A stretch of DNA of 64,000 bases from Crocinitomicaceae bacterium. Lineage in GTDB: Bacteria > Bacteroidota > Bacteroidia > Flavobacteriales_D > Crocinitomicaceae. Shown piece after piece: positions 32,932 through 53,170 of the stretch. The position numbers and the translations under genes were made by a program. Location: the NCBI GenBank assembly GCA_023957475.1, contig JAMLHA010000004.1:124001-188000 (forward strand), read 5' to 3'. Each line of letters begins with the position of its first letter. Position 1 is the first letter of the stretch. The notes under the pieces were generated by a model. The model was not told the DNA's origin and searched no databases. It saw only the letters and a list, made by a program, of their open reading frames with translations.

Positions 32932-32936
32932 TTAAT

Positions 32937-34225: not shown

Positions 34226-34228
34226 AAC

Positions 34229-34687: not shown

Positions 34688-35145
34688 TAAATGTACTCAT
34701 CACAATAGCCGTATTCATCGCTATGGAAGGAGCTAATTGGCTTATTCACAAGTACATTATGCACGGTTTTTTATGGGTTTTACACCGAGATCACCACGAT
34801 CATAGCAATAAAGGCGAGTTAGAAAAAAACGACTGGTTTTTTGTGATTTTTGCAATCCCCACTATTGCGTTGATGTATTTCGGGTCATTAGAAAATTTCA
34901 ATTATTTGTTTTTTATCGGCTTGGGAATTATGCTCTACGGCATGGCTTATTTTTTTGTACATGATATTTTTATTCATCAACGGATAAAGTTTTTCACACA
35001 CACTAAAAACGCTTATTTTTTAGCACTTCGCAGAGCACACAAGCAGCATCACAAACATTTAGGAAAAGAAGAAGGCGAATGTTTCGGGTTTTTATATGTG
35101 CCCTTGAAGTATTTTAAAATGTATTTTAAATCGGTTAAATCCTGA
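34684..35145 (+). CDS. crtZ: Beta-carotene hydroxylase
   Basis: The 153-residue membrane protein of the fatty-acid hydroxylase type has histidine clusters HKYIMHG (23-29), HRDHHDH (near 35-41), HDIFIHQR (near 97-104) and HKQHHKH (near 118-124), which hold the diiron centre. It adds hydroxyl groups to the carotene rings, making zeaxanthin. It ends at the base where the cyclase gene begins. Confidence 0.93.
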   Translation: MINVLITIAVFIAMEGANWLIHKYIMHGFLWVLHRDHHDHSNKGELEKNDWFFVIFAIPTIALMYFGSLENFNYLFFIGLGIMLYGMAYFFVHDIFIHQRIKFFTHTKNAYFLALRRAHKQHHKHLGKEEGECFGFLYVPLKYFKMYFKSVKS

Positions 35146-35828
35146 TGGCTTATACTTACGCACTCATATTGTTTTTCACGATCATCATTTGCTTTATAGC
35201 ATCTTTTGACAAAAGAATTCAATTCAATCTTCAATTTGGTTCATTCCTAAAAGCTGCCATTTTAGTAGCTATTCCTTTTATCGCTTGGGATATATGGTTT
35301 ACGGCTCATGGAGTATGGTGGTTTAATACAGATTATACTCTTGGAATTTCGTTTTTTGGTTTGCCTTTGGAAGAAATTTTATTCTTTATTTGTATTCCGT
35401 TTTCGTGCATTTTTACCTATTACACCATTGATAAATACTACAAATGGGAAGCCTTAAGTGCTTTTAATAATTTATTGGTTTTTGTAAGCATTATAATTTT
35501 GTCGGTTGTCGGCTTATTGCATACAGACAAAATTTACACCCTCATTACAACAATAGTTACGATACTTACATTGATCTATTTACATTTTATTGCTAAAGTA
35601 GATTGGCTTACTAAAGCATCTTTGGTTTTTATGCTTCTTATGCTTGGTTTTTTTCCGGTTAATGGGGTATTAACTGGTAGTTTTATTGAAAATCCGATTG
35701 TTAATTATAATCCAAAAGATTTTTTGGGAATACGAATGTTTACCATTCCTATTGAAGATGCAGTTTATGGATACTCTCAATTTTTAATAGTGCTTTATTT
35801 TTTCAAAAAATTATCAAAAGCAAAATAA
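35145..35828 (+). CDS. Lycopene cyclase, membrane type (CrtYcd-like)
   Basis: The 227-residue protein has about six or seven transmembrane helices. It carries two family blocks, WDIWFTAHGVWWFN with GLPLEEILFFICIPFSC in the first half and GIRMFTIPIEDAVYGYSQF in the second, i.e. both halves (Yc and Yd) are fused in one chain, as is common in Bacteroidota. It closes the ends of lycopene into beta-carotene. It is the last gene of the overlapping crt block. Confidence 0.9.
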   Translation: MAYTYALILFFTIIICFIASFDKRIQFNLQFGSFLKAAILVAIPFIAWDIWFTAHGVWWFNTDYTLGISFFGLPLEEILFFICIPFSCIFTYYTIDKYYKWEALSAFNNLLVFVSIIILSVVGLLHTDKIYTLITTIVTILTLIYLHFIAKVDWLTKASLVFMLLMLGFFPVNGVLTGSFIENPIVNYNPKDFLGIRMFTIPIEDAVYGYSQFLIVLYFFKKLSKAK

Positions 35829-35893
35829 ACATAAATAATAAGTTGTTCTGTATTTCAAAATAATATAATCTGTTTAAAGATCAACAGTAAAAA

Positions 35894-36370
35894 ATGAACT
35901 TATTAATAAAAGATGAACAGCTTGAATTGAAGTATGAACCTGGAAAAGGTGCGTGGACATACCATGTTCAAATACCTAATACAAAGCACATTGTAGGAAA
36001 ATGGGGTTCGTTAAAAGCTTCTGGCACTATTGACAATTATCCTCTTGAAAAAGTCAATCTATTTACCATTTCAGGACAAGATAAGTTGATTTCCATAAAC
36101 GAAAAAATCAGAAAATCAATAAATAAAACCGGTGGCGACAAAGTAAAAATTACACTCTATTTGTTGACTTCAAATGAACAAATTACTGAGGATGAAATTT
36201 TAGAAACTTTTTCCCAGTCAGGTGTTTTAGAGGTTTTTGAAAGTTTGACTGAGGACGAAAGAAAAAGAATAATTGAAGAAATAAAATCTAAAAATTCAGA
36301 CGAAAAACAAATTAAAACCATGCTGAAATTTATCAATGAGTTTGATCAGAGCAAGACTAAAGAGCATTAA
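35894..36370 (+). CDS. DUF1905/YdeI-type protein
   Basis: The 158-residue cytoplasmic protein has an N-terminal DUF1905 barrel (YEPGKGAWTYHVQIPNTKHIVGKWGSLKASGTIDNYPLE) and a C-terminal helical tail, LTEDERKRIIEEIKSKN, of the YdeI/OmpD-associated kind. Relatives have been linked to bacteriocin or peptide resistance. No specific role is shown here. It follows the cyclase by 65 bp. Confidence 0.75.
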   Translation: MNLLIKDEQLELKYEPGKGAWTYHVQIPNTKHIVGKWGSLKASGTIDNYPLEKVNLFTISGQDKLISINEKIRKSINKTGGDKVKITLYLLTSNEQITEDEILETFSQSGVLEVFESLTEDERKRIIEEIKSKNSDEKQIKTMLKFINEFDQSKTKEH

Positions 36371-36406
36371 ACTATATAGATGAGATAACTTTTAAAATAA
36401 GATAAA

Positions 36407-36967
36407 ATGAAAACAAAAACAATCATAGGAACCGCTTTTATCGCTTGCGGGATTTTACTTTTAAATTCTTGTGCATCAATACCTAAGAATGCAAAACCAG
36501 TAGAAAATTTTGATGTCAATCGATATTTAGGTGCTTGGTACGAAATTGCACGATTTGATTTCCGATTTGAAAAGGATTTAGACAACACTTCAGCACAGTA
36601 TAAATTGGATAAAAAAGGAAATGTAATGGTCTTGAACAGCGGTTACAATTTCGTGAAAAAGAAATGGAGTAAAGCTGATGGATTGGCAAAATTTAGAGGA
36701 GATAAAAATATAGCCGCTTTAAAAGTGAGTTTCTTCGGACCATTTTATTCAGGCTACAATGTAGTGGCTTTAGACGAAAATTACCAATATGCTTTAATTG
36801 CCGGAAAGAATTTGGATTATCTATGGATTTTATCCCGCACAAAAACTATTCCCGAGGATATAAAAACAAAGTACTTGAAAATAGCGGAAGAAATCGGTTA
36901 TGACACTTCCAAATTGATTTGGGTAAAACACGACAAAACCGATAATCCCTATTTGAATGAAAACTAA
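36407..36967 (+). CDS. blc: Lipocalin lipoprotein (Blc-like)
   Basis: The 186-residue protein has a lipoprotein signal with Cys in LLLNSCASI (residue 22) and the lipocalin GxW motif in VNRYLGAWYEIARFD (near 40-54). It has YALIAGKNLDYLWILSRT near 130-147 and the closing helix. Blc-type lipocalins bind lipids at the outer membrane under stress. It overlaps the photolyase gene by 11 bp, so they are coupled. Confidence 0.92.
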   Translation: MKTKTIIGTAFIACGILLLNSCASIPKNAKPVENFDVNRYLGAWYEIARFDFRFEKDLDNTSAQYKLDKKGNVMVLNSGYNFVKKKWSKADGLAKFRGDKNIAALKVSFFGPFYSGYNVVALDENYQYALIAGKNLDYLWILSRTKTIPEDIKTKYLKIAEEIGYDTSKLIWVKHDKTDNPYLNEN

Positions 36968-38261
36968 ACTTTCCATCTTCTGGTTTCGTAGGGATTTGCG
37001 ATTGGAAGATAATGCAGGATTGTGTCAGGCTTTGGCTTCGGGATTTCCGGTGTTGCCGATTTTTATTTTTGATACAGTTATTTTAAATGCGTTAGAAAAT
37101 AAAAGCGATAGACGAGTAGATTATATTCATCAGGCACTTTCAACAATCAATTTAGCATTAAAAAATTATCATTCAAAACTGAGTTCTTTTTATGGAAAAC
37201 CTTTAGAAATATTTCAACAACTTTCCCAAGAATATGACATTCAAGCGGTGTTTTGCAACCGAGATTATGAACCACAAACCATTGAAAGAGATACCGAAAT
37301 TTACAACTTTTTCAAAACCCAAAACATTCCTTTTAAAGCATTTAAAGACCAGGTGATTTTTGATAAAAACGAGATTGTAAAAAATGACGGAACGCCTTAT
37401 ACGGTTTATACACCTTATGCTAAAAAATGGAAAGAAATTTTAACCGAGAAAGATTATCACATTCAGAAAGCAGATTTTAATCACTTTTTGAAACAAGATT
37501 TCACTGAAATTCATTCTTTAAATGAAATTGGTTTTAAGAAAACAGAATTTCATTTTGAAACGCCAAAATTAGAAGCAAAAATCATTGATGAATATGATAA
37601 ATACAGAGATTTTCCAGCACTTCAAAAAACAACTCAATTAGGGATTGCGTTAAGATTTGGAACCATCAGTATTCGTAAATGTGTGAATTTTGCTTTGCAA
37701 CACAATCAAACTTGGTTAGGCGAATTGATTTGGCGGGAGTTTTTTATGCAGATTTTGTATCATTTTCCAAAGGTGGTCAGTCATTCTTTTAAGACGAAAT
37801 ACGATTTTATACAATGGCGGAATGACGAGCAGGAATTTGAGTTGTGGTGTACTGGAAATACAGGCTATCCGATTGTAGATGCTGGAATGCGACAGCTCAA
37901 CGAAACAGGTTATATGCACAATCGGGTTCGGATGATTGTTGCCAGTTTTTTGTGTAAACATTTGCTGATAGATTGGCGTTGGGGCGAAGCGTATTTCGCT
38001 GAAAAGTTGAATGATTACGATTTGTCTGCCAACAATGGAAACTGGCAATGGGCAGCAGGTTGTGGTTGCGATGCTGCACCTTATTTCAGGGTGTTTAATC
38101 CTGCATTGCAAACCGAAAAATTCGACAAAAATTTTGACTACATCAAAAGATGGTTACCCGAATTTGGAACTGAAAAATATCCAAAACCGATAGTAGAACA
38201 TAGTTTTGCAAAAGATAGAGCTTTAAAAATTTATGGTGAAGCAGTAAAAGAAAGACAATGA
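36957..38261 (+). CDS. phrB: Deoxyribodipyrimidine photolyase
   Basis: The 434-residue protein is a class I photolyase/cryptochrome: N-terminal IFWFRRDLRLEDNAGL for the antenna domain, and a C-terminal FAD domain with WLGELIWREFFMQILYHFP, GNTGYPIVDAGMRQLNETGYMHNRVRM and the NDYDLSANNGNWQWAAG block. It uses blue light to split pyrimidine dimers. With the carotenoid genes it makes a light-protection module. It overlaps the next gene by 4 bp. Confidence 0.95.
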   Translation: MKTKLSIFWFRRDLRLEDNAGLCQALASGFPVLPIFIFDTVILNALENKSDRRVDYIHQALSTINLALKNYHSKLSSFYGKPLEIFQQLSQEYDIQAVFCNRDYEPQTIERDTEIYNFFKTQNIPFKAFKDQVIFDKNEIVKNDGTPYTVYTPYAKKWKEILTEKDYHIQKADFNHFLKQDFTEIHSLNEIGFKKTEFHFETPKLEAKIIDEYDKYRDFPALQKTTQLGIALRFGTISIRKCVNFALQHNQTWLGELIWREFFMQILYHFPKVVSHSFKTKYDFIQWRNDEQEFELWCTGNTGYPIVDAGMRQLNETGYMHNRVRMIVASFLCKHLLIDWRWGEAYFAEKLNDYDLSANNGNWQWAAGCGCDAAPYFRVFNPALQTEKFDKNFDYIKRWLPEFGTEKYPKPIVEHSFAKDRALKIYGEAVKERQ

Positions 38262-39160
38262 AGAAAATATTAATAGCAGGAGGAACTGGTTTTGTTGGAA
38301 AACAGCTCATTCCTTTTTTAGTAGAAAAAGGATATTCAATTCATGTTTTAACCCGAAAACCAAGTGCTAATTCATCAAAAAATATTCGCTTTTTTCGATG
38401 GGAAATCGAAAGACAATACATCGACAAAAAAGCATTTGAAGGAGTAGAAATTCTCATTAATCTTACCGGTGCAAACATTGGCGAAAAACGATGGACAAAA
38501 CAACGAAAGAAGGAAATTATTGACAGTCGCACAAATTCCATTGATGTATTGTATCAATATATTTCGGAAAATAAATTCAACATCAACACCTTTATTTCAT
38601 CCTCTGCTGTTGGGTTTTATGGTGCGGTAACAACGGATAAAACATTTGTAGAAACTTCTGAAAGCGGAAACGATTTTTTAGCTTCTGTTTGTCAGCAATG
38701 GGAAAATGCTGCTTTTGAATTTAAGGATTTAGGTGTTCGTACTGTTATTTTACGCAAAGGAGTTATTCTTGGAAAAGAGGGTGGAATGGTTAAAAAACTA
38801 AGCCCATTAGCCAAACTCGGAATAAATGTTTCTTTAGGTTCAGGCAAGCAATATTTGCCGTGGATAGACATTCGGGATTTGGTCAAATTGTACAATTTTA
38901 TTCTTTCTAACGCTCAACTCAACGGAATTTATAATGCCGTTGCAACGGAACAAATGACCATGAATGATTTCTCAAAAGCCTTATTAAAATCTTTCGGGAA
39001 GAAAAGCTTCTTGCCCAATGCACCTGCTTTTGTTATTCGTTTGCTCTTTGGCGAAATGGCGGTGATGCTTTTAGAAGGTTCAAAAGTCAGCAACGAAAAA
39101 TTAAAAAATACCGGATTTTATTTTGAATTTGATACGATAGAAAGGTCTTTGTGTCTGTGA
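38258..39160 (+). CDS. TIGR01777-type NAD(P)-dependent oxidoreductase
   Basis: The 300-residue short-chain dehydrogenase has IAGGTGFVGKQLIPFLVEKG at residues 5-24, NLTGANIGEKRW near 69-80, SSAVGFYG and the C-terminal DUF1731 helix block. Such proteins stand beside photolyase in many Bacteroidota. The substrate is unknown. It is the last plus-strand gene. The next three features are palindromes. Confidence 0.9.
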   Translation: MKKILIAGGTGFVGKQLIPFLVEKGYSIHVLTRKPSANSSKNIRFFRWEIERQYIDKKAFEGVEILINLTGANIGEKRWTKQRKKEIIDSRTNSIDVLYQYISENKFNINTFISSSAVGFYGAVTTDKTFVETSESGNDFLASVCQQWENAAFEFKDLGVRTVILRKGVILGKEGGMVKKLSPLAKLGINVSLGSGKQYLPWIDIRDLVKLYNFILSNAQLNGIYNAVATEQMTMNDFSKALLKSFGKKSFLPNAPAFVIRLLFGEMAVMLLEGSKVSNEKLKNTGFYFEFDTIERSLCL

Positions 39161-39178
39161 GTTTGTAGCAAAGGGAAA

Positions 39179-39240
39179 ATTTAGCTCTTTTGGTTTTTTG
39201 TGAGTGGTTTGTGCGTTGACAAAAACCAAATGTGCTAAAT
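39179..39240. repeat. B element B3
   Basis: 62 bp. ATTTAGC, TCTTTT, GGTTTTT, a loop with GCGTTGAC, AAAAACC, AAATGT, GCTAAAT. It begins 18 bp after the oxidoreductase stop and forms the right border of the pigment module, with B2 as the left one. Confidence 0.8.
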
Positions 39241-39318
39241 GAGCGTTGGCAAAAAATAAAACAAAAACTTGGATTAATTTCAGAATTTATTTTGGTGGTT
39301 CGGTTCTTCTACGCTTGC

Positions 39319-39452
39319 CTGTAACGGTTTTCAGCTATACGCAGGCAGGGAATTTTACCACTGAACTTCCTACGAAGAACTGAACTTTGAATTTACCACT
39401 TATCTGTCCTACAAAGCACAAAACCCCTGCTTGCGTATAGGTGATGTTGTGC
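39319..39452. repeat. A element A2
   Basis: 134 bp. Left CTGTAACGGTTTTCAG, arm CTATACGCAGGCAGGG. Right CCCCTGCTTGCGTATAG, then GTGATGTTGTGCG. Almost identical to A0. The right end has GTTG in place of GTTA. Confidence 0.85.
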
Positions 39453-39508
39453 GTTCGGTGTTCTTTTTCGTCCGTCGGTTTTTCGGTCGGTTTGGTCGTG
39501 CAGTAGGG

Positions 39509-39575
39509 CAGACACACTCTTTGCCAAGTTTTGGCTTGCGGGTCGGCTGGTGCGACTTGGCAATGTGTGTGGCTG
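39509..39575. repeat. B element B4
   Basis: 67 bp, nearly the same as B0: CAGACACAC, TCTTT, GCCAAG, loop, CTTGGC, AATGT, GTGTGGCTG. It lies between A2 and the stop of the nuclease gene. Confidence 0.8.
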
Positions 39576-39602
39576 TGAAGCGTTGGTTTTATTTCTATTT
39601 TG

Positions 39603-40583
39603 TTATAAAGCATTGAATAGTCCTTTTCTTTCTTTTAGTTTATTTAATTCTATTGCCTTGATACTTGTCAAGTCAGATTTATATTTCACTTCCGAAACAT
39701 TGTTTGGAATATGAACTTTCTCTATTTTGTCTATGTCCTGATGTCTGTAAAAACGTAAAGACTGTTGAGCAATGTCATAATCGAATTTTACGCCAATGGA
39801 ATGTTCCAAAGAACTTCCAAGCGTTCTAAAAACAATTGTGTTTAGCTTTTCAACTGTATCAAAGTCGTAATCAATCTTCTCAGAAATTCTGTCAATTAAA
39901 TACTGAATGCTATTCCCTGAATTGTGTTGTTTTAAAAAAACCGAAGCAATTAAAACTTGTGTGTCAGACGGAGGGTTTAACTGTTCCGCTGAGAAAATAT
40001 GTTTTCTCTCAAAGTTCGAACTGCTCTTAACTTCAATTCTTTCTGTTCCTGCGTTAAAATCAAATTTCTCCTCTGGTATGTTATGCCAATAATTTAAGAG
40101 TTCTTTTGGATTGGTTGAATTTTCAATTAAAAATAACTCAGCCCAAAGACCGTTTACTGTATTTGTTGGAGAATCTGTCAAGGTTTTAAATACTTCAACA
40201 AACTTTTTGAGCGAATCAATTACTTGTTGTTGAGTTGGATTTTGTCCAACTGTTTTTACGAGAGATTCAGATATTCTAAGAAAGTATTCTTGCAAGTTTC
40301 TGTCGCTGCAACGGAATGTAATAACAGTAAATGTTTGAAATTTGAAGGAATCATTCTCATAAATTTTACATTCAAGGTTTTGTTCAAGTTGCAAATATTT
40401 GAGGCGAAAATTCTTCAGGCTTAAATCCTTAATTCTCTTAGATACAGAAAGCAATAAAACTGCATTCCCTTCAAAGTCAATTGCCACTCGAAAATTTGGG
40501 TATTCGGGGATTGGAATTGCATTGAAAACCTTGCTGTCATTTTCAGGCAAGCTCAGAGAATCGTATAGGTCAATTAAATTCAT
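39603..40583 (-). CDS. PD-(D/E)XK nuclease of the MORC-Z1 system (DUF4420-like)
   Basis: The 326-residue protein is the last gene of the operon. Near residues 170-185 it has KFDFNAGTERIEVKSSSNFERKHIFSAEQL, in which D, E and K fit the PD-(D/E)XK active site. The family is known next to Z1 helicase and MORC ATPases. It would make the DNA cut of the system. Its first 4 bases overlap the Z1 gene, so the two are coupled. Confidence 0.85.
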   Translation of the reverse strand: MNLIDLYDSLSLPENDSKVFNAIPIPEYPNFRVAIDFEGNAVLLLSVSKRIKDLSLKNFRLKYLQLEQNLECKIYENDSFKFQTFTVITFRCSDRNLQEYFLRISESLVKTVGQNPTQQQVIDSLKKFVEVFKTLTDSPTNTVNGLWAELFLIENSTNPKELLNYWHNIPEEKFDFNAGTERIEVKSSSNFERKHIFSAEQLNPPSDTQVLIASVFLKQHNSGNSIQYLIDRISEKIDYDFDTVEKLNTIVFRTLGSSLEHSIGVKFDYDIAQQSLRFYRHQDIDKIEKVHIPNNVSEVKYKSDLTSIKAIELNKLKERKGLFNAL

Positions 40584-42817
40584 ACTTGCCTTATTAAATC
40601 AGCTCCCATATGTTCAGGAATCCAAATTGCTAGGGTTGGAACGTTTTGAAAATCGGTATCTCTCAAATTCAAAAGGTGAATTTGAATTGTCAAAAGATTT
40701 TCATCCTTAATTTCTGAATCACCTGGGTAAATTACTTCTCCTGTTCTCGGGTTACGACCTTGAAATAGCTGTTGTATTTCATCATTTCGATTTAATCTAC
40801 GAGTTCTTGGTGTCCAATTATCATAGGAATTTGTACTCATCAAGTAAACCAAACATTCTTCGTCTGAATGTTCCTCAATATATCCTTTTAAAATTCCTCT
40901 GAGGCTTGAGTATGTTGCCGAATCGCTTTCTCTTGTATAACGAAGATTGTTAAGCAAATGCTCCAAACATTCTTGAATCGTAATTCTTGCAACTAAATGT
41001 TTTTGTTCTTCGGTTCTATTTGGATGTCCCTCATCTTGGTTAAACAAACTTGCTCTTGATTGTAGGAAAGTTAAAAGGGCATTTCTATTGGCTTCAATCA
41101 ATTCATCTGTGTCGTGTGGTGCGTTAATTCTAAACCAATCATTACCAAAAGTATCTCTATCTAAATCGTCATAGATGATGTTTCGTCTAGTTAGGTTTAA
41201 CATTTGATTAAGCACTGCCACTCTGTCTAAATCGTTTAGGTGTCTATCATTCAAATGAAACTCTAAAAGTCTATTTCTTACATCTTCTTCGTGTTCTACG
41301 ATAAAATTGTATGCATCAATAGTTACTTGGTCTAAGAATACTCTACAATAGCCTAAGTAACCTCTTTTATATCCAAAAAATCTTGCTCTCTGTTGAATTG
41401 TATCAACGTTTCCTGTACCAATATTTCTCGGCATATAAGTTACAGTCAACCCTTCAACTGTGAATCCTCTATCCATTGATTGTCCGCCCACTAAAATCCA
41501 AGAGTAGAAATCATTCCAAGGAATTTGCGGTGTTACTCCATTTCTAGAATTGACTTCAACAATTTGGGTGTATCGCAGAGCGTGAATCAAATCGTTTCCT
41601 GTTAGCGTTTCAAAACTAGGCAAATCAGAAACGGTCATTTGTAATTGATTATAAGAACTTCTAAACTCTTCAATAAGTTCTCTTCTGTCTTCGTCATCAC
41701 TGCCTGAAAGAAGCCTTTGCCAACTATTACAAGTATTTCTTATCCAATTTGTAAATTCGTTATGGTCTCCTTGCAGTCTTGAAGGATGGACAAGCATTGT
41801 CCTGTTCCTGTGATTATTTTGCATTTCTCCTGCAACTACACCCAAAAAGAAAATGCGTAAAGCACTTTTCAAACTCTCTGGAATTTCAAATAGCGGATTT
41901 GTTGGAGTAGGAATTTCATTTGGTGGTATCTCCAAGATAAGGTTTGGATTATTTCTGAAAAAATCAATTCCACCCGTGTAATCTGGTCCGGGAGTTAACA
42001 GTTTTATGAAATTGGGAGAAAGTCTATCCATTATATTTATGAATAGATTTGCCTGTGGCGTAGCGGTGTATTGTAAAAATGTGTGATGTGGGAAAACATT
42101 GCGAAGTGCATTTATTCTTCGGTAAATAGTTGAAACTTGATTTTCGGTTAAACTTTCTATATCAATGTTTTGTCGTGCAGCCCATCTTGCTCTAGTGTTT
42201 AGACTTGCTTGGTCTCCTTCATCATCAATTATCAAGGTTGGAACACCTGTAAGGTTTTGTCCTGCAAGAATATTAACCAAGTTATTCAAGTGAGATGTGT
42301 TCTTCATCACTGTTATAAGCAATGTTCTACACCTTTCTATTGGGAAAGTTGGGTCAGCCCATTGGGCAAGTGTAGTTTCTATTGTTTCAGCTTCTTGGTT
42401 ACTGTTTGGATTTTGGAGTAATGTCCACTTTCTGTCAAAGCGAGTGTTTAATCTTAAATCGTCCGCTAATCGCTGTGTTGACTGATTTACAAGATTAGTT
42501 GAAACACCTGCAATGACGATTACAATCTGATAGTTGTTATCTCTAGCTAATGCAGTCAGAGTAGTGAAAGAAAGGGTTTTTCCACTTTGGACATAACCAA
42601 TTACAATTCCTGTTTCATTATTGGTTTGGTCATTAGGATTACCACACACCTGCATAATTCTGTATGTTTCATCCAATATTCTTTCGCCACTTTGATTTAA
42701 ACTTCTATCAGAATTAGTAAAACCTTTACTTCGCAAAAGTTCAGTAGTTTCATCACCTACAAATGGTTGCCAATCTCCATTTTGGTTTTGATTCTGTATT
42801 TCGATTAATTCTGTCAT
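40580..42817 (-). CDS. Z1-domain helicase-like ATPase
   Basis: The 745-residue protein has Walker A in VIGYVQSGKTLSFTTL near residue 75, Walker B in TLIIDDEGDQASLN near 195, TYTATPQANL-type motif III (QYTATPQANL), and the Z1 domain block SWILVGGQSMDRGFTVEGLTVTYMPRN (near 450-478), which replaces the second helicase half. Z1 proteins are found with C5 methyltransferase, MORC ATPase and PD-(D/E)XK nuclease (Iyer, Abhiman and Aravind defined such systems). It should move along DNA to direct cutting. It lies 4 bp after the MORC stop. Confidence 0.92.
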   Translation of the reverse strand: MTELIEIQNQNQNGDWQPFVGDETTELLRSKGFTNSDRSLNQSGERILDETYRIMQVCGNPNDQTNNETGIVIGYVQSGKTLSFTTLTALARDNNYQIVIVIAGVSTNLVNQSTQRLADDLRLNTRFDRKWTLLQNPNSNQEAETIETTLAQWADPTFPIERCRTLLITVMKNTSHLNNLVNILAGQNLTGVPTLIIDDEGDQASLNTRARWAARQNIDIESLTENQVSTIYRRINALRNVFPHHTFLQYTATPQANLFINIMDRLSPNFIKLLTPGPDYTGGIDFFRNNPNLILEIPPNEIPTPTNPLFEIPESLKSALRIFFLGVVAGEMQNNHRNRTMLVHPSRLQGDHNEFTNWIRNTCNSWQRLLSGSDDEDRRELIEEFRSSYNQLQMTVSDLPSFETLTGNDLIHALRYTQIVEVNSRNGVTPQIPWNDFYSWILVGGQSMDRGFTVEGLTVTYMPRNIGTGNVDTIQQRARFFGYKRGYLGYCRVFLDQVTIDAYNFIVEHEEDVRNRLLEFHLNDRHLNDLDRVAVLNQMLNLTRRNIIYDDLDRDTFGNDWFRINAPHDTDELIEANRNALLTFLQSRASLFNQDEGHPNRTEEQKHLVARITIQECLEHLLNNLRYTRESDSATYSSLRGILKGYIEEHSDEECLVYLMSTNSYDNWTPRTRRLNRNDEIQQLFQGRNPRTGEVIYPGDSEIKDENLLTIQIHLLNLRDTDFQNVPTLAIWIPEHMGADLIRQV

Positions 42818-42821
42818 ATCT

Positions 42822-44360
42822 TTATTGTTTTGAGAGATTGGATATTAGCTCATTAAAATTTCTCCGAACTTCTCCTTGATTTTTGTAGCTGTCCTTTGCA
42901 ATGATTTCAGAAAGACCTAAAGCTGCCGCAATTCTGAGAACAGGCTCAATTTTGTTAGTGTCGGCTCCCGCAAATTCAACCATAAAAGGATGTGTTAAAG
43001 AAAGTCTTATCCCAATCTGACGAACAGATGAATTGCTAACTTTTTCTTTAATAAAACTATCGCCTACTTCAATTAACTCTGTTAGTGAAGGGTCATAAGA
43101 AAGTTCAATTGACACTTTCCAATCAACTTTATTAAACCGTATGTCAAACTCTCTATGAAGCGTTTTTTCGGTTTTGGTTAATTCTACCTTTTCTTCGGGT
43201 TCTGCTACGGAAATTGAATTTACTACTTCGGCAACTGCTTGCGGTGCTTTCTTCTGAAAGTCATTCACCGTTTCATCAAGTGCTTTTACAGCTGCTTTAT
43301 ATTCCTTTTCAGTCGCTCTTACTCGATATTGTTCTGCTTGTTGCAGTAATGGAAAGTCTTTAGAGCTAATATCATCTTTAAGTAGTCTGAGAAAAATCTC
43401 TAGGTTCTCATCCCATTGGATTCCTTTTTTAGTAAAGTTTACACTAAATCCATCTAAGTGAAGTTCTCCAAAAACTCTTTGATAGCGATAACTGTTTGGA
43501 GCTCCGAAAATAAAATCAGGTCTAAAGCCATTATCAAAACTGCCTTCAATAACTCTGCCTCTTCGAAATAATGCAAAACCTGCTTCTGATGTAGATGCCT
43601 TTTCTCTGATTGCAACAAAACCGTGAACACTTAAACCTTCTTCTAATTCAAAATCAATTTCCTTTCGCCACAGAATAGGGTCATCATCTGGTTTGTCATA
43701 TTGAGGAACATTAAGGATTTTTGGGTCTTCAAATTTTAATTCTTCATTGTTCAAGGTTAGCTTTAAAACGCCTTTACGGATAAATTCTCTGTAAATACTT
43801 CGTAAATGGTCTTTTACTTTTCCTACACCTTTTCTTCTAGGCATTCTATTTACATCAAACAATTCTACGATTGTGAAATGATGGTTTTTTTCGCAAGATT
43901 TAATTTCAACATCCAACTCCTCTAACTTGTCCTCAAAAATCTTTTTCATATCGAAGGAAACCTTCTTCACCTGTGTTTCTCCCAATGCTGTGGATGTAAC
44001 ACACCAATTGTCAGCAAACCAACAAGCTGCTGATTTCATACCCATTCCAAATTCAGAAAGACCTGAATTATCAGGTGGAACTTCCGCAGCTCGAAATGCT
44101 CTTGAATAATCAGCTTCTCCAATTCCTCCTGCATTATCTCTTATGGTGATTCTATTTTCAGGTTCGTTTATTTCAACTCTTACTTCAAGAGCAAAATCAT
44201 CTCCCTCAATTTCCTTTAATCGTTTTATATTTTTTAAGTAGCTATCAATTGCGTTATCAATGAATTCAGCCAACGCAAACCAAGTCTCATATTCTATGTG
44301 CTTGAGAACAGAGAGCATAGTAACTTGTGGACGAATACTAACTTTACTTTGCTGGCTCAT
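42822..44360 (-). CDS. MORC/HSP90-like GHKL ATPase
   Basis: I place the start at the ATG at 44360 (512 residues, MSQQSKVSIRPQ), which overlaps the methyltransferase by 17 bp. A longer frame would begin at 44408. GHKL ATP-binding motifs: N-box EFIDNAIDSYLKN (E, N), G1 DNAGGIGEADYSRAF and G2 GLSEFGMGMKSAACWFADN. After the S5-like second domain comes a helical segment (about 350-400) and a C-terminal beta region. In such systems the ATPase, related to eukaryotic MORC proteins, probably clamps DNA. It is the second gene of the operon. Confidence 0.92.
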   Translation of the reverse strand: MSQQSKVSIRPQVTMLSVLKHIEYETWFALAEFIDNAIDSYLKNIKRLKEIEGDDFALEVRVEINEPENRITIRDNAGGIGEADYSRAFRAAEVPPDNSGLSEFGMGMKSAACWFADNWCVTSTALGETQVKKVSFDMKKIFEDKLEELDVEIKSCEKNHHFTIVELFDVNRMPRRKGVGKVKDHLRSIYREFIRKGVLKLTLNNEELKFEDPKILNVPQYDKPDDDPILWRKEIDFELEEGLSVHGFVAIREKASTSEAGFALFRRGRVIEGSFDNGFRPDFIFGAPNSYRYQRVFGELHLDGFSVNFTKKGIQWDENLEIFLRLLKDDISSKDFPLLQQAEQYRVRATEKEYKAAVKALDETVNDFQKKAPQAVAEVVNSISVAEPEEKVELTKTEKTLHREFDIRFNKVDWKVSIELSYDPSLTELIEVGDSFIKEKVSNSSVRQIGIRLSLTHPFMVEFAGADTNKIEPVLRIAAALGLSEIIAKDSYKNQGEVRRNFNELISNLSKQ

Positions 44361-45699
44361 AGGATTTGGATAATGAATTAGACGATTGGAGTTGCGAAGC
44401 AACTCCATTTAGTTTCTTTTCTTCAACCAAAAACTGAGTAGCAATGAGCTTTACAATTTTGGCATTTACAGCATTTCCTAGAGCTTTGAAAGCTGCATTG
44501 TCGTTTTCAGGTAGTTTTAAGCCTGTTAAAGATTGAAGTTTTAATCCTTCTTTTTTTGTAATGTATCTGTTTTCCCAACCGATAATTGGAATTTGCGTGT
44601 TTGTACAAACTAGAGAAGGGAAAAAATCTGGTTTTTTAATTCTAATACCTGAGGCTCTGAATTGCAAGAGATAATTATTGATTTTTCGTTCGCTATCTCC
44701 AACATTCCATTCTAACTTTTGCCAACTTTGAGAAGGCAACTTTGAAATTTGTTTAACGGCTTCTTTTATGAACTTCTTGTTGTCTTTGTAAAATTGCCTA
44801 TTCTGCCTAATATATCTCTGTTTCCAATCGGGGAACTCATCTTCAACTCTTGCGTAACTTGGTAGATTTGCTAATTGTTCTTCCTTTGTCATTCCTTTTA
44901 ATGAAATTCCAAAGTTTCCTTTGAATTCGCCCAATTCTTTTGCAGAAAGTAAATGAGGATATTGTTCTTCAAATGGATAGTCTGCTCCGAATTCCATTCC
45001 CCAAATTGGAAAACCTGGGATTTTTACCTCTTTTGGTAAAGCATCAATTAAGTCTTGCCAAAGTCGTATGCAATCTTGATTTGATTTAGGTAGTTGCTTT
45101 GCACTAACTGGATTCTGTTCAATGAAATTTTCAAGTTCAACAACATTTTTTTTGTATTTATCTACTTTGTCAAAACTAAAATGGTCGAGTGCATTTGAAC
45201 CTAGCGAGCCAACAATAAATATTCTTTGTCTATGCTGTGGAATACCAAAGTCGTGAGGGGAATAGTCTTTATGGTCAACTTGATACCCAAGTCTCTCAAA
45301 CTCAACTTTCATTGCTTTCCAAGTTTCTTCGTTATTGTGCTTGGCAATGAATCGAACATTCTCTAAAATGAAATATTTGGGTTTTCGAGCTTCAAGAATT
45401 TTTACAATTTCGTCAAACAGTGTTCCTCTGTCGTCCTCTCGTCCAAGTTGTTTTCCTGCTTTTGAAAATGGCTGACAAGGGAAACCTGCACACAATATGT
45501 CGTGGTCAGGAATTAAGTCAATATTGTCTTTGACTATTTTCCTTATGTCTCCGTGAATGTTAATGTCTTTACCCCAATTCTTTTTGTAGGTATCTCTTAA
45601 TACAGGGTCGAGTTCACTTGCAAATACACACTCGTGTCCAAGTTCGTGTAATGCTTTATGAAAGCCTCCAAGTCCCGCGAATAAATCTATAAATCTCAT
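44344..45699 (-). CDS. DNA cytosine-5 methyltransferase of the MORC-Z1 system
   Basis: The 451-residue protein has motif I IDLFAGLGGFHKAL (4-17), motif IV AGFPCQPFSKAGKQLG with catalytic C75, motif VI ENVRFIAKHN near 119, motif VIII QHRQRIFIVG, a ~150-residue target-recognition region (about 190-350) and motifs IX/X near LKLPENDNAAFKALGNAVN. It marks the host's own sites so that the downstream ATPase, Z1 protein and nuclease act only on foreign DNA. It is first in the operon. B5 and A3 lie upstream. Confidence 0.95.
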   Translation of the reverse strand: MRFIDLFAGLGGFHKALHELGHECVFASELDPVLRDTYKKNWGKDINIHGDIRKIVKDNIDLIPDHDILCAGFPCQPFSKAGKQLGREDDRGTLFDEIVKILEARKPKYFILENVRFIAKHNNEETWKAMKVEFERLGYQVDHKDYSPHDFGIPQHRQRIFIVGSLGSNALDHFSFDKVDKYKKNVVELENFIEQNPVSAKQLPKSNQDCIRLWQDLIDALPKEVKIPGFPIWGMEFGADYPFEEQYPHLLSAKELGEFKGNFGISLKGMTKEEQLANLPSYARVEDEFPDWKQRYIRQNRQFYKDNKKFIKEAVKQISKLPSQSWQKLEWNVGDSERKINNYLLQFRASGIRIKKPDFFPSLVCTNTQIPIIGWENRYITKKEGLKLQSLTGLKLPENDNAAFKALGNAVNAKIVKLIATQFLVEEKKLNGVASQLQSSNSLSKSYEPAK

Positions 45700-45783
45700 T
45701 CTATATTTTCAGTCCTAAATATTGCTTTTCAAAATTCGCAATTTATGTTTTTAATCTTCTCTGTCTGTCCGTGCCTTGGCAAA

Positions 45784-45846
45784 AAATGGCTCTTTTGGTT
45801 TTTGGAGCGTTGGCTTGTGTGTCGGCAAAAACCAAATGTGCCATTT
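45784..45846. repeat. B element B5
   Basis: 63 bp. AAATGGC, TCTTTT, GGTTTTT, a loop with GCGTTGGC, AAAAACC, AAATGT, GCCATTT. Right border of the MORC-Z1 module. Confidence 0.8.
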
Positions 45847-45870
45847 GCGGGTCGGCTTTTTACACTGACG

Positions 45871-46002
45871 CACAACGTTTTAGGCGCTCGGAGCAGAAGC
45901 CCTTCTTGCGAAGATTTCAAACTCGAAGCACGAACTCAAAGTTATACAAAAATCTTAAACTCGAAACGGTTTTGGCTTTTGCTCTGAACGCCTTGTTAGC
46001 GG
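45871..46002. repeat. A element A3
   Basis: 132 bp. Left CACAACGTTTTA, arm GGCGCTCGGAGCAGAAGCC. Right GGCTTTTGCTCTGAACGCC, then TTGTTAGCGG. The next gene stop begins 5 bp further on. Confidence 0.85.
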
Positions 46003-46007
46003 TAGCC

Positions 46008-46598: not shown

Positions 46599-46622
46599 TG
46601 TTTTTATGTCTATTTGGGGATT

Positions 46623-46756
46623 ACCGCTAACGTCCGGCAGGTTGGCGAGGGCGAGGTTTTCCCCGAAAACCCAAATCCGAAGCCGAAACTGCAAATTTAA
46701 CGAAAATGTTTCAACGAAGCATTTTCGCCCCGCTCTTGCCAACCTGATGTTAGCGG
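46623..46756. repeat. A element A4
   Basis: 134 bp. Left ACCGCTAACGTCCGG, arm CAGGTTGGCGAGGGCG. Right CGCTCTTGCCAACCTG, then ATGTTAGCGG. The centre is AT-rich with CGAAGC words also found in other A elements. Confidence 0.88.
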
Positions 46757-46786
46757 TTCGGTTATTTTTTCTCGTCCATTTGTCAT

Positions 46787-47284: not shown

Positions 47285-47330
47285 TTTCTTTTATGTTTTG
47301 GTTTCTATTATGGTCGTCATTTTAACTGAC

Positions 47331-47464
47331 CGCTAACGTCCCGCAGCTATGCCCAGTAGCCGTTTTGCGGGATTCGTCGCTGTCACCCGCTACAAGTTTT
47401 CTGCGGGGCACTGCTGTTTCAATTTGCTCTTTCATAGGCTATTGGGCATAGGTGCTGTTACCTG
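47331..47464. repeat. A element A5
   Basis: 134 bp. Left CGCTAACGTCCCGCAG, arm CTATGCCCAGTAGCC. Right GGCTATTGGGCATAG, then GTGCTGTTACCTG. The stop of the next gene is 3 bp beyond. Confidence 0.88.
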
Positions 47465-47467
47465 TAG

Positions 47468-48199: not shown

Positions 48200-48232
48200 A
48201 AAGTTGATATTTGAAGGTCATTCAATAATTAC

Positions 48233-48366
48233 AGGTAACGGTTTGGCGGCTTGACGCAGGGCGGATTTTACCGACAAATGTTAATACGAAGATAATACTT
48301 TTTTCTTTACGAAAATGTTCAATCGAAGCAATTAACCCGCCTTGCGTTCAAACCGCTTGTTATAGG
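48233..48366. repeat. A element A6
   Basis: 134 bp. Left GGTAACGGTTTG, arm GCGGCTTGACGCAGGGCGG. Right CCGCCTTGCGTTCAAACCGC, then TTGTTATAGG. Its arms resemble those of A1. Confidence 0.88.
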
Positions 48367-48407
48367 CATACCCCTTTGATATTCAGTTTATTAATTTGTT
48401 TTCTGTG

Positions 48408-48465
48408 GTAGCTCTTTTGCATTTTTATTTAGCTTTGTGCGTTTGGAAAAATGCAAATGTGCTAC
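48408..48465. repeat. B element B6
   Basis: 58 bp. GTAGC, TCTTTT, GCATTTTT, a loop with GTGCGTTTGG, AAAAATGC, AAATGT, GCTAC. Left border of the TIR restriction operon. Confidence 0.75.
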
Positions 48466-48482
48466 TAAATGTATTAGGTCTT

Positions 48483-49334
48483 TTACTCGCTTTTAACTCT
48501 TTCCGAAATCTGTTTTGCAATCTCTTCAATTGTAAAACTTGATGTGTTTAAAGCTAACATATCTGCAATAGTCGGACTGAATTTCAACACTTCATTTTTG
48601 CTTATCTTGTGCCAAATGGGCAATATTACTTTTTCTCCGTTTATTTCTCTTGCAAATAGTCCGTCCAATTCTCTTTGTGGCCATTCTTTGCTAAAAAATG
48701 CCTCTGATAAAACCACAATCCCATAACGTGAATTTCTTAAACCACTATCAATAGAACGCCTTAAACTATCTCCAATTTTGAGAGAGAACTCGTCATACCA
48801 AACATTGATCCCATATTCTTGCAAACAATTAACAAAAGGACGTACGAACTCGTCTTTATCCTCCGAAGCGTGTGAAACAAAGACATCGTAATTGCTAACA
48901 GTGATGCTTTGGGGTTTAATTATATCAATTGAATAAAGAGATAATCTTTTTTGTAGTTCCATTTCTCTTGTGATTTGTTGTTGTAACGACAACATTTCTT
49001 TTTGTTCTTTTTTTGCCTTATCTCTTTCTCTTTGTTCTTCTTTGGTTAACTTAGAAATCAAATCAAGTCTCTTTTTTTGTTTTTCTGACAGTGTTTTAGA
49101 TTTTGTGCTTTTGTCCTTTTCTAATTTGTTTATCTCTTCATTTTTTCTTGTTAAGTCCTTTTGATATGAAATTACTCTTTTCAAATCTTTTTCTTTTGAT
49201 ATTTTTTCGAGAATTCTATGTGCTTCTTTTTGTTTACGGCTGATATTTGTGTCAATAGTTTGAATATTCTTCTCAACGGTGTTTATGTTTCTATCAATAT
49301 TTGCTATATCTCTCGCAATGCTTTCTATTCTCAT
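48483..49334 (-). CDS. Coiled-coil TIR-domain protein in a restriction operon
   Basis: The 283-residue protein begins with about 140 residues of coiled coil (NIDRNINTVEKNIQTIDTNI..., Lys- and Glu-rich). A TIR domain (about 150-283) follows: YDVFVSHASEDKDEFVRPF, WYDEFSLKIGDSLRRSIDSGL and LSEAFFSKEWPQRELDGLF, in which the Glu of QREL is at the place of the catalytic NADase Glu. TIR proteins in phage defence often use up NAD. It is the fifth gene of the RM operon, 9 bp after the last methyltransferase, which suggests a backup suicide role. This is inferred. Confidence 0.88.
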   Translation of the reverse strand: MRIESIARDIANIDRNINTVEKNIQTIDTNISRKQKEAHRILEKISKEKDLKRVISYQKDLTRKNEEINKLEKDKSTKSKTLSEKQKKRLDLISKLTKEEQRERDKAKKEQKEMLSLQQQITREMELQKRLSLYSIDIIKPQSITVSNYDVFVSHASEDKDEFVRPFVNCLQEYGINVWYDEFSLKIGDSLRRSIDSGLRNSRYGIVVLSEAFFSKEWPQRELDGLFAREINGEKVILPIWHKISKNEVLKFSPTIADMLALNTSSFTIEEIAKQISERVKSE

Positions 49335-49343
49335 TTTGTACTT

Positions 49344-50381
49344 TTAAAGGATTTCTTGAAATTCATTTAGTATTGCTTGTTTTATTGTTTCTTCAAAACA
49401 ACTATTCACTAACGCATTTACAACATTCCACATTAAAACAGGTGGAACAGCATTACCAATTGCACGGTATTTTCTGTTATCTGAAACACTGTCTAATTTG
49501 AATGATAAAGGGAATGATTGAATACAAGCGGCTTCTCTTGGTGTAAATCGTCTATATCGCTCTCCAACCATTAAAACAGGGTCGGTTCCGTTAAGGCTTA
49601 CTTTTGCTAAATGTGAGGTTATTGTATTGCAAGGTTCGTTTAAATCCTGAACTCGACCCTTATTCATCTTTTCTCTGACCCGTAACATTCCATCAACAGC
49701 TCTTTGACTGAAAAACCATTTTTCGTCTTTATCTGCTTTTTTATCAACTACTTGTTTTAAAACAATCTTAGAACTGTCTAAGGTGTTAGGCAACGGGAAT
49801 TTGAAATTGAAATAATCGACAAAATCTCTAAAACCCATAATAAAAACACGCTCACGCTTTTGAGGGACACCAAATTCAGAAGCATTTAAAAGTTTATAAT
49901 GAATGTGATAACCTGCTTTTTCAAATTCTTTTATAATTAATGGGAATGCTTTTCTTTTATTTGCCGAGAGTAGTCCTTTAACATTTTCTGCAATAAAAAA
50001 CCTAGGCTGTTTTTCTTTTAAGACTCTTACCATTTCAAAAAATAGTTGCCCTCTTTCGTCTTTATAACCCAATCTTGGTGGATTTTGGGCACTTATTGAG
50101 AATGATTGACAGGGAAAACCTCCTAACAAAATATCGTGGTCAGGTACTTCATCTGCAACAATTTCCCGAACGTCTTTTGTTTCACATTTATGCGAAAAAT
50201 TATCATTATAAATTTTAGTTGCATATGCATCATTATCAACTGCATAAACAACTTCAAAAGGTAATTCTGCATAATGCTTGTTAAGAAAATTAAAACCTCC
50301 TTGAATGCCTAAATCCATCCCTCCGCAACCACAAAAAAGCGAAGCAACCTTTAATTTGCTATTTCCAAAAGTTTCTGCCAT
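49344..50381 (-). CDS. DNA cytosine-5 methyltransferase (second of the operon)
   Basis: The 345-residue protein has motif I ASLFCGCGGMDLGI (13-26), motif IV GGFPCQSFSISAQNPP with catalytic C91, motif VI ENVKGLLSANK near 137, motif VIII PQKRERVFIMG and the closing RAIGNAVPPVLMWNVV. It overlaps the nuclease gene by 31 bp. Two different C5 methylases in one operon suggest an asymmetric recognition site with each strand handled by one enzyme, or one may be orphan. Confidence 0.95.
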   Translation of the reverse strand: MAETFGNSKLKVASLFCGCGGMDLGIQGGFNFLNKHYAELPFEVVYAVDNDAYATKIYNDNFSHKCETKDVREIVADEVPDHDILLGGFPCQSFSISAQNPPRLGYKDERGQLFFEMVRVLKEKQPRFFIAENVKGLLSANKRKAFPLIIKEFEKAGYHIHYKLLNASEFGVPQKRERVFIMGFRDFVDYFNFKFPLPNTLDSSKIVLKQVVDKKADKDEKWFFSQRAVDGMLRVREKMNKGRVQDLNEPCNTITSHLAKVSLNGTDPVLMVGERYRRFTPREAACIQSFPLSFKLDSVSDNRKYRAIGNAVPPVLMWNVVNALVNSCFEETIKQAILNEFQEIL

Positions 50382-51790
50382 TGTCCTGATGTTTTAGAAA
50401 ATTCAACAACTAAATTTTTATCAATTTTTAAATTACCTAATTCAAATTGTTTGATTGGGTTTTGAATGACAAAAATATTTTTACCCTCGTCATTTATCAC
50501 TAAATAATATACGTAATAATTATCGCCCAATGTCTCGGCTGTATCCCATTCGTTTGGTGTGAGTTTAAAACGGTTATTATTGATTGCTTTTCTTGATTTA
50601 GTCGTCTTTACTTCGATATACCGTTTCTTTTTTTCTATTTCAATACTTTGTAAATCATATCCAACTCCAAGTGGTGTAGGGATTTTGTTGATTAAATGCT
50701 GACGGTTTGAACCGTCTTTTGTTCTCAAATATTCGTGTGCTAATATTAGTGTTTCACCATAGTCGCCTATTATTTTTGTGGGAACTTTTCTATCTTCTTT
50801 CATTCGTGAATAATACTCTTGAATGAGTGCAGATATATTTTCAACTTCCTGTTCTTCTAAATGTGGTGCGAACGCTTCGATGTTATCAAAACTATTTACA
50901 TAATCAAACCAGACCGCTTCTAATGCTCCGATTTCAGGATTTGTAATTTCGTCTATATTGTAGAATTTATCGTACTCATCAAACCAAACATCATTCTGTA
51001 AGTGAAAGTTAATAGCCTCTTTGTTTTCGTTATTAAGATAGTAATAATAACCTGTTCCTTTATGCTGTAATAGGTTGGCTAAAACCATATAGTCCAAAAT
51101 ATCTCCAGCATAACGATTTGTATCGCCTTTTGACGGAAACTTGCCTGTACGTTCGTTTCTTAGGGCTTCATAGTCATATTTATATTCTACTTTATCTTTT
51201 CTGTTTTGTAGAATGAGTTTAGCGACTTCTTTCGCTTGTCTTTCTCCCGTGGTAACACGTAGGTCAAAATAAGCACATTGTGTTAATTCTTCTGCTGTTA
51301 TGCTAAATGATTTTCCTGTTAATTTCTCTCCTTCAATAAGTAAATTAAGTATAAACTGACAAGGTTTAAATCTTACACCTGCCTCAATCTGTTTGATTAC
51401 ATTTTGAGATTTAATATGACCGCCAGGATATTGAAATGAAAATAAAAAGTAATTAAAAAACTCATCTAAATATTGATTGTTAGCAAGTCTTTTTGCCATT
51501 AGTCCGGGTTGAGAATAATTATTAGTTTCTTGTATAAATCCAAACAAGGCAGAAATCTCTGTACGCCAATTATCAATTGTTTTTTGTGTAGATGTTGCAT
51601 TCTTCTTAAACCCAAATAACACCTTGTTCAATTCATTTCTAAAATCGCTGTTTGGCAGAACTTCTATTTCTGAAATTGAGGTTGCTACATACAACAAAAC
51701 TTCCTCTACATCATTTTTAAAACGAGGTCTAACGTGATGTAATCGAAAAAAATACTCTTTAGGTATTCGGTATGTTTTTATTTCGCTCAT
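50351..51790 (-). CDS. Restriction endonuclease with DUF3883-type PD-(D/E)XK domain
   Basis: The 479-residue protein is helical and unassigned in its first 320 residues. The C-terminal part has GDYGETLILAHEYLR near 340, GVGYDLQSIEIEKKKRYIEVKTTKSR near 370-395 and NEWDTAETLGDNYYVYYLV near 405-425. D in GYD, E and K in IEVKTT fit a DUF3883/NOV-type nuclease core. Between two C5 methylases it is the obvious cutter of a type II system. It overlaps the first methylase by 4 bp (ATGA) and the second by 31 bp. Confidence 0.87.
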   Translation of the reverse strand: MSEIKTYRIPKEYFFRLHHVRPRFKNDVEEVLLYVATSISEIEVLPNSDFRNELNKVLFGFKKNATSTQKTIDNWRTEISALFGFIQETNNYSQPGLMAKRLANNQYLDEFFNYFLFSFQYPGGHIKSQNVIKQIEAGVRFKPCQFILNLLIEGEKLTGKSFSITAEELTQCAYFDLRVTTGERQAKEVAKLILQNRKDKVEYKYDYEALRNERTGKFPSKGDTNRYAGDILDYMVLANLLQHKGTGYYYYLNNENKEAINFHLQNDVWFDEYDKFYNIDEITNPEIGALEAVWFDYVNSFDNIEAFAPHLEEQEVENISALIQEYYSRMKEDRKVPTKIIGDYGETLILAHEYLRTKDGSNRQHLINKIPTPLGVGYDLQSIEIEKKKRYIEVKTTKSRKAINNNRFKLTPNEWDTAETLGDNYYVYYLVINDEGKNIFVIQNPIKQFELGNLKIDKNLVVEFSKTSGQWQKLLEIAN

Positions 51791-52830: not shown

Positions 52831-53152
52831 ATTTTATTTTTCCTTGTTTTGTATTTATACTTTTTAGATAATTTATTTTTTCTTCCGCAACAATCAGCGT
52901 TTCAGGTGAACAGTTGTATTGATACATTTTCTTTGCGAATTGGTCTGCAAAATATTCTGTTTTCAACTGTTCAATGTCAAGATTAAAAGCAGTTGCCAAT
53001 TTCTCTAATCGTTTTTCGTCAAATTCACGTTTCCCATTTTCGATTTTGCTTAAATTTGCACTATCAAGGTCAAGCTGAAAAGCAAGTTGCGTTAAAGTTA
53101 AGCGATGGCTTTTCCTTAATTTTCTTATATACTCCCCAAATGTTGCTTTCAT
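52814..53152 (-). CDS. XRE-family controller (C) protein
   Basis: The 112-residue protein has a helix-turn-helix of the Xre type: FGEYIRKLRKSHRLTLTQLAFQLDLDSANLSKIENGKREFDEKRLEKLATAF (5-56). A short helical C-terminus follows. As first gene of a restriction operon, with a palindrome over its own -7 box (see 53171-53214), it fits a C protein that delays nuclease production when the operon enters a new cell. It overlaps the methylase gene by 17 bp. Confidence 0.9.
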   Translation of the reverse strand: MKATFGEYIRKLRKSHRLTLTQLAFQLDLDSANLSKIENGKREFDEKRLEKLATAFNLDIEQLKTEYFADQFAKKMYQYNCSPETLIVAEEKINYLKSINTKQGKIKFENEK

Positions 53153-53170
53153 ATACTTGCAAATTAAAAC

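Follow-up and report, generated by a model that had tools for sequence, protein, structure and literature searches.

A methylase-MORC-Z1-nuclease operon of a Crocinitomicaceae bacterium is probably a conserved restriction-modification system carried as a single integron cassette

Introduction

Restriction-modification (R-M) operons that combine a MORC ATPase, a Z1 protein and a nuclease of the restriction-endonuclease (RE) fold were delineated by Iyer, Abhiman and Aravind in 2008 as a third type of MORC operon, on the basis of gene neighbourhoods only (PMC2292703). Components of this kind recur in the anti-phage system MZA (mzaABCDE) and in the CglI/NgoAVII R-M enzymes, in which a Z1-containing superfamily 2 (SF2) ATPase drives a separate nuclease and the use of ATP is consistent with translocation (PMC4267653). 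Here, we describe an operon encoding a methylase, a MORC-type ATPase, a Z1 protein and a nuclease at positions 39603-45699 of a 64,000-nucleotide stretch from a Crocinitomicaceae bacterium (contig JAMLHA010000004.1, positions 124,001 to 188,000; hereafter the window, to which coordinates refer unless a contig or locus is named). It is most probably a conserved, ATP-dependent 5-methylcytosine R-M system, transferred among Bacteroidota in the form of a single integron cassette.

An integron cassette is commonly regarded as a single small gene. The defence cassettes of integrons are described as small, with larger systems of more than two genes absent from integrons (review PMC12409362), and a survey with IntegronFinder 2.0 found almost no complete integrons in Bacteroidetes (PMC9024848). 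The search for the integrase, IntI, is defined by an IntI-specific domain (method in PMC9668308).

Results

All four genes lie on the minus strand. They encode a C5-cytosine DNA methyltransferase of 451 amino acids (aa) (44344-45699; Pfam PF00145, 2.3e-66), a MORC-type GHKL-S5 ATPase (42822-44360; PF13589, 5.3e-17), a Z1-domain SF2 ATPase/translocase of 745 aa (40580-42817; PF10593, 2e-41; PADLOC Helicase_II, 3.7e-50) and a DUF4420 PD-(D/E)XK nuclease of 326 aa (39603-40583; PF14390, 1.7e-56). Called from its first ATG, the MORC open reading frame would span 42822-44408 (528 aa); starting from the conserved ATG at 44360 (MSQQSK) yields a protein of 512 aa and a 17-bp overlap with the methylase gene. 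MORC and Z1 are separated by a 4-bp gap, and Z1 and the nuclease overlap by 4 bp. A preliminary description of this DNA had named the same four families and the same gene spacing, and both are borne out by the Pfam matches, the reading-frame coordinates and the conserved start.

For comparison, 80 loci were fetched with the Z1 protein, 63 of which hold all four genes complete. The order methylase-MORC-Z1-DUF4420 was found in nearly all 80, in carriers from the Bacteroidota, Alphaproteobacteria, Clostridia, Treponema, Planctomycetes and Chloroflexi, and the arrangement is therefore not a matter of chance. Across the 63 complete loci, the catalytic residues of all four proteins are near-invariant. 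The ratio of nonsynonymous to synonymous substitution rates (dN/dS), calculated against four relatives, was 0.02-0.20 for every gene in every computable comparison, and internal stops are absent. The four genes are under purifying selection, and the system is real and intact; intact motifs and purifying selection are consistent with its being active. A search of phage records for relatives of the MORC protein found none. Compared with loci L010, L011 and L015, synonymous divergence (dS) varies strongly along the genes (against L010, 0.27 for the methylase and 0.02 for the nuclease), so that the operon appears to be a recombination mosaic.

In R-M systems, target domains usually change fast. 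In contrast, the target-recognition region of this methylase family (residues ~180-375) contains many positions that are invariant across phyla and is nearly as conserved as the catalytic part, in which, among the 63 loci, PCQ (74-76), ENV (113-115) and QxRxR (155-159) are near-invariant, as is GN (408-409) further on. The closest solved structure, M.HhaI (9.9e-45), covers residues 1-223 only, i.e. the catalytic half. In the Algoriphagus marincola locus L022, moreover, a methylase of only 53% identity stands beside a Z1 protein and a nuclease that are 96% and 93% identical. The conserved target region, together with this pairing, suggests that the family has one fixed recognition sequence.

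Near-invariant positions of the MORC protein comprise N52, D91xxxG95 and G121MG123xK125, and its sequence GFALFRRGRVI fits the S5-domain motif GhXhhpXXRhl, with G277, R282 and R285 invariant. Structural comparison of its AlphaFold model (mean predicted local distance difference test score, pLDDT, 81.8) with VIA-align ranked SMCHD1 highest (Z 25.8), along with MORC3 (24.7), MORC2 (24.4) and MORC4; the top 11 entries all belong to SMCHD1 or MORC2/3/4 (Z 25.8-23.1) and are followed, by a small margin, by TRAP1/Hsp90 (22.2). Judged by this model, the ATPase is a eukaryote-type MORC/SMCHD1 module whose GHKL-S5 fold lies nearer to MORC/SMCHD1 than to Hsp90, MutL or topoisomerase.

In the Z1 protein, both the Walker A motif GxxQSGKT (74-81, here GYVQSGKT) and the Walker B motif IIDDEGDQ (196-203) are near-invariant. 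It further carries TATPQ and DTIQQRARFFG, the latter departing from DThhQXuRhFG at one position (Q for h) and including the near-invariant residues D472, Q476, R477, A478, R479 and G482. The nuclease displays a catalytic E149-D175-E184xK186 arrangement in which E149, D175 and K186 are invariant and E184 is present in at least 90% of loci. Its AlphaFold model (pLDDT 89.3) places a PD-(D/E)XK domain at residues ~140-320, for which VIA-align retrieved Hjc, DpnI, SwaI, EcoRV, SfiI and HincII (Z 6.9-4.2), all of them PD-(D/E)XK enzymes; Foldseek returned nothing with an E-value below 0.1 for the same model, restriction-enzyme folds appearing only in VIA-align. Pedobacter yonginense (L059, 5478-12633) has MORC, Z1 and nuclease genes without the usual methylase, and two unrelated C5 methylases downstream. 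The N-terminus of its nuclease has diverged to an unusual degree (31% identity vs 38-57% in loci of comparable Z1 identity), a methylase-swap comparison that gives only a hint that this part of the nuclease may read the DNA target.

As a protein system, the operon belongs to a described class, the third MORC operon type, and is related to, yet distinct from, MZA. All three features that mark the third type are present, namely a MORC protein with the GhXhhpXXRhl motif, a Z1-type SF2 helicase with a DThhQXuRhFG-like motif and an additional, separate RE-fold protein with E-D-ExK; a cytosine methylase is likewise shared. Unlike in the original description of that type, the operon has defined cassette boundaries, and the target domain of its methylase is conserved family-wide. 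With MZA it has the MORC, Z1 and DUF4420/PD-(D/E)XK components in common. In contrast to MZA, the cassette contains a methylase and lacks MzaA and MzaE; no fifth gene that could be MzaE (AIPR) lies between the nuclease and the end of the cassette. The MzaB, MzaC and MzaD equivalog scores stayed below the NCBIfam cut-offs (26.7/850, 129.5/1500 and 25.6/420), and these scores, together with gene content, led us to reject an assignment to MZA. CglI/NgoAVII likewise pairs a C5 methylase with a Z1-containing SF2 ATPase and a separate endonuclease, and it provides a working model for the coupling of ATP use to cleavage. Membership in that group was rejected, since the nuclease there is of the PLD plus B3 type, whereas the R protein here is a DUF4420 PD-(D/E)XK protein of a different fold, and the MORC ATPase is additional; because the folds differ, the resemblance is one of working alike, not of membership.

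The preliminary description had recognised the protein system well: its intact motifs reappear in the alignment of 63 loci, its MORC assignment agrees with the predicted structure, which ranks SMCHD1, MORC3, MORC2 and MORC4 over Hsp90, and its link to a MORC-containing R-M class matches the third operon type (PMC2292703). What it overlooked is the integron setting. That setting determines where the operon begins and ends and how it is transferred, and it is more surprising than the protein system itself.

The borders of the operon fold into imperfect ~138-bp hairpins with AAC and GTT ends, which is the anatomy of integron attC sites. Defined by these sites, the four-gene cassette measures 6,551 bp (45875-39325, minus strand); it begins with the T that follows the crossover G in the attC upstream and ends with the crossover G (39325) in its own attC. 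The latter (39316-39455, minus strand; R'' at 39446-39453) forms a hairpin and scores 100.2 bits (1.4e-23) in the attC covariance model R1, of which it is a training site; the attC of the upstream neighbour (45867-46004, minus strand; 103.0 bits) provides, with its R', the 5' end of the four-gene cassette. The model was built from eight sites, its E-values are rough, and it is tuned to this bacterial family, so that it may overlook integron borders in other phyla. In the window it detects 12 attC, four of them outside the training set; every one is on the minus strand. Genome-wide it detects 47, in co-oriented, clustered arrays on contigs C28, C30, C2, C5 and C29, with R''/R' boxes and one site per cassette. 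Covariation between the arms amounts to 0.513, as compared to 0.216 ± 0.040 after shuffling, and falls to 0.217 or less when the alignment is slid by one column. An Rfam scan of the window returned only RNase P.

If a cassette is excised as a circle, the R'' of its attC should complement the R' at its own 5' end, not the R' of the same site. In the four-gene cassette, R'' (CGCACAAC) and the 5' R' (GTTGTGCG) match at 8/8 positions. Similarly, R'' of the upstream neighbour's attC (CCGCTAAC) mates 8/8 with that neighbour's own 5' end (GTTAGCGG), and the window contains 8 copies of GTTAGCGG, the predicted start of a neighbour cassette, vs 0.46 expected. Genome-wide, 32 of 42 cassettes mate 8/8 (mean 7.38); random pairing gives 5.35 ± 0.16, and pairing within the same site 5.56. 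Of the cassettes that deviate, at least two begin at an attI, to which they match 8/8. In three further family genomes, the mean was 6.8 vs 5.06 ± 0.17. Complementarity between R'' and the cassette's own 5' R' is the signature of recombination at G^TT. An initial candidate explanation of the shared borders, as ends of an insertion sequence or of a site-specific island, was dropped after this test.

Near-identical copies of the operon in other genera end where the cassette ends. In Kordia zhangzhouensis (97% DNA identity) and Flavobacterium cyanobacteriorum (96%), homology stops sharply at 39322 and ~45876. Between R' and the end of attC, identity to the Kordia copy (L010) is 97% (homology limits 39322-45876, mate at L010:3941), and that copy has the same R''/R' pair at its own ends. 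In loci L012 and L019, the R boxes of the system are others, yet each R'' again fits the 5' end of its cassette. G179, from a further genus of the family, harbours a system whose MORC is ~54% identical; it occupies a cassette of 7,924 bp that mates 8/8 and lies in an array headed by an integrase of its own. This version of the cassette has a fifth gene (L127, 11262-12257; 332 aa, no NCBIfam match).

The window array starts at an attI block (55370-55460, minus strand; crossover G at 55378), from which the Pycsar cassette, an R-M cassette with TIR, three single-gene cassettes and the MORC system follow in this order. The R' of the block (GTTAGTGG) mates 8/8 with the first downstream attC (R'' CCACTAAC), and its 30-bp core is identical to a block found directly 3' of a full-length integrase on contig C2. 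There, the block immediately follows the tyrosine recombinase gene, and we identify it as an attI because its GTTATGCA is the 8/8 mate of the array's first attC; attI thus stands beside an integrase gene, and the first cassette starts there. Next to the attI of the window, a 3' integrase remnant (55477-55551, minus strand) retains the C-terminal residues RTTEIYTHVSKKQIENIKSPFDDL up to the stop, an ending motif shared with the C2 integrase. Two further attI blocks lie on the same contig upstream of the window array (G000:C28:193.88k and 199.49k; L114), which suggests several integron heads in tandem on C28.

From GLR to HxLRH, the family recombinases measure 89-91 aa, similar to two other Xer-type recombinases of the genome (90-96 aa), as compared to 132 aa in IntI4, counted from the recombinase/IntI4 alignment. 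The recombinase scores 195 against the 265-bit cut-off of the integron integrase model TIGR02249, and the IntI-specific additional domain that characterises integron integrases is lacking. Among 120 genomes of the family, 40 have the recombinase and 71 have attC; attC occur in 32/40 integrase-bearing vs 39/80 other genomes (Fisher p 0.0015), and in about a dozen genomes they lie downstream of the recombinase on the same strand.

Other cassettes of the genome are predicted to hold full-size defence systems. In the window, the first cassette after attI (53509-55334) comprises Pycsar (PycC and PycTM), with its attC at 53328-53492 (36.5 bits; not in the training set). It is followed by a single attC-bounded cassette (48230-53328; attC 48230-48368, 126.5 bits) that encodes a helix-turn-helix protein, two C5 methylases, a BpuJI-like nuclease with NOV_C and a TIR protein (PDC-S66). 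Two single-gene cassettes, both mating 8/8, have attC at 47328-47466 (18.7 bits, E 0.0086; not in the training set) and 46622-46758 (119.6 bits). The border sequences of the four-gene cassette also flank a module at 23.6-28.0 kb, a type IIG R-M cassette (23594-28142; attC 23594-23733 and 28002-28142) that encodes the R-M protein (24804-27857) and a 310-aa reading frame and whose own end boxes match only 4/8. All of these attC, and the type IIG cassette, are on the minus strand. The intervening 11.3 kb between two attC (28002-39325) have ends that mate 8/8 and contain plus-strand genes opposing the array, one of them photolyase-like; ordinary chromosomal genes may have interrupted a cassette here. 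A hairpin element of ~55-95 bp (GCACATTTGGTTTTTG...CAAAAACCAAAAGAGC) recurs mostly just inside cassette starts (27914-27994, 39162-39250, 45767-45861, 53230-53324 and at 48.4 kb). A pattern search gave only three exact matches genome-wide, and the element is perhaps a promoter or regulatory element.

Elsewhere in the genome, a cassette on contig C29 (G000:C29; L090:4236-13833) holds methylase, MORC, Z1, DUF4420 and AIPR genes within 9.46 kb between two attC. By its sequence, this second MORC-Z1 system is a diverged relative of MZA B-E plus a methylase. A 12.9-kb cassette on contig C5 (G000:C5:56769-69784; L110), with ends that mate 8/8, encodes HsdM, HsdS, a 454-aa protein, HsdR, a 655-aa protein and a SIR2/pAgo-like protein of 1040 aa, i.e. 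a type I R-M system plus SIR2/pAgo. Further cassettes carry a type IIG R-M system, AbiD plus HsdR, a type IV enzyme, and a DRT-like reverse transcriptase with a methylase.

Discussion

From these data we infer a scheme for restriction, for the reading of the target site and for cassette exchange. Host DNA would be marked by the methylase at a single fixed target sequence. Where incoming DNA lacks this mark, the DUF4420 nuclease and Z1 would work together like the R-N unit of CglI/NgoAVII, Z1 hydrolysing ATP, moving along duplex DNA and licensing cutting. By analogy with eukaryotic MORC proteins, the MORC ATPase may be an ATP-gated DNA clamp, which would close as an ATP-dependent dimer, hold or compact DNA and gate the nuclease. 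An integron-type tyrosine recombinase would act on folded attC, exchange the genes between two attC crossover points (G^TT) and insert cassettes at the attI just 3' of its own gene.

That the operon is instead a diverged MZA member with an incidental methylase is suggested by the matches of three of its four proteins to the MzaB, MzaC and MzaD models, and by a system in the same genome that is clearly related to MZA B-E and has an additional methylase. We regard this as very unlikely, given that the scores fall far under the equivalog cut-offs, that the cassette has neither MzaE (AIPR) nor an MzaA-like gene, and that the methylase is kept in nearly all loci with its gene under strong purifying selection. 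It is also unlikely that the system works by abortive infection or DNA compaction in place of classical restriction, with MORC entrapping incoming DNA and the nuclease serving as a licensing or kill factor. Eukaryotic MORC-1 is reported to entrap and condense DNA topologically (PMC8277788), and abortive-type systems (Pycsar, TIR) sit in the same arrays; but the invariant target domain of the methylase and the intact E-D-ExK nuclease point to discrimination between self and non-self by methylation. As regards the setting, the attC-like repeats might be inert palindromes, or sites of another tandem-insertion element, with the operon merely located between them. A canonical IntI was not found in the genome, the closest recombinase is without the IntI-specific insertion, and palindromic repeats are common between genes. 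Yet repeats alone would not produce 8/8 mating in 32/42 cassettes, which directly records circular intermediates that were opened at G^TT; attI also pairs with the first cassette, and the boundaries of transfer fall on the crossover points, which leaves this explanation hardly credible.

Several points weigh against an R-M system carried as an integron cassette. The steps proposed for restriction and recombination rest on sequence and structural models. Searched by sequence against the PDB, neither the MORC profile nor the nuclease profile matched a solved structure, and the fold match of the nuclease is moderate, with Z at most 6.9. The five-gene C29 cassette mates only 6/8. In many carriers, particularly outside the Bacteroidota, attC of this type were not detected, and the system therefore does not depend on integrons. 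The recombinase is shorter than IntI4 by ~42 aa at the IntI-specific domain; as this insertion, regarded as essential in IntI, is absent, a catalytic role of the recombinase, which may act on folded sites, rests on its position and its co-occurrence with attC. According to PMC8138268, integron-like recombinases do not all retain the insertion in full.

The arrays resemble the sedentary chromosomal integrons of Vibrio (PMC12409362) in their attC-bounded, co-oriented cassettes, an attI beside a tyrosine recombinase and defence cargo. They differ from them in the flavobacterial host, in a recombinase without the IntI-specific insertion and in an attI that lies 3' of the recombinase in the same orientation; unlike integrons as reviewed there, they contain multi-gene defence cassettes of 6.5-12.9 kb. 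On balance, we favour the view that flavobacteria run a widespread, unrecognised class of integron, provisionally new, in which an Xer/XerA-like recombinase without the IntI-specific domain would act on folded attC and whole multi-gene defence systems, including two MORC-Z1 systems, would circulate singly in such cassettes. The near-absence of complete integrons reported for Bacteroidetes likely stems from searches that define IntI by the domain missing here.

If this view is correct, the statements that integrons have no defence systems of more than two genes and that Bacteroidetes have almost no complete integrons would reflect a search method confronted with a recombinase without the required domain. 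It raises the mechanistic question of how such a recombinase handles folded single-stranded sites. For cloning, the cassette borders define exactly the smallest unit expected to function. The operons from which eukaryotic MORC ATPases are proposed to derive would, if the integron reading is true, travel between bacteria via integron recombination.

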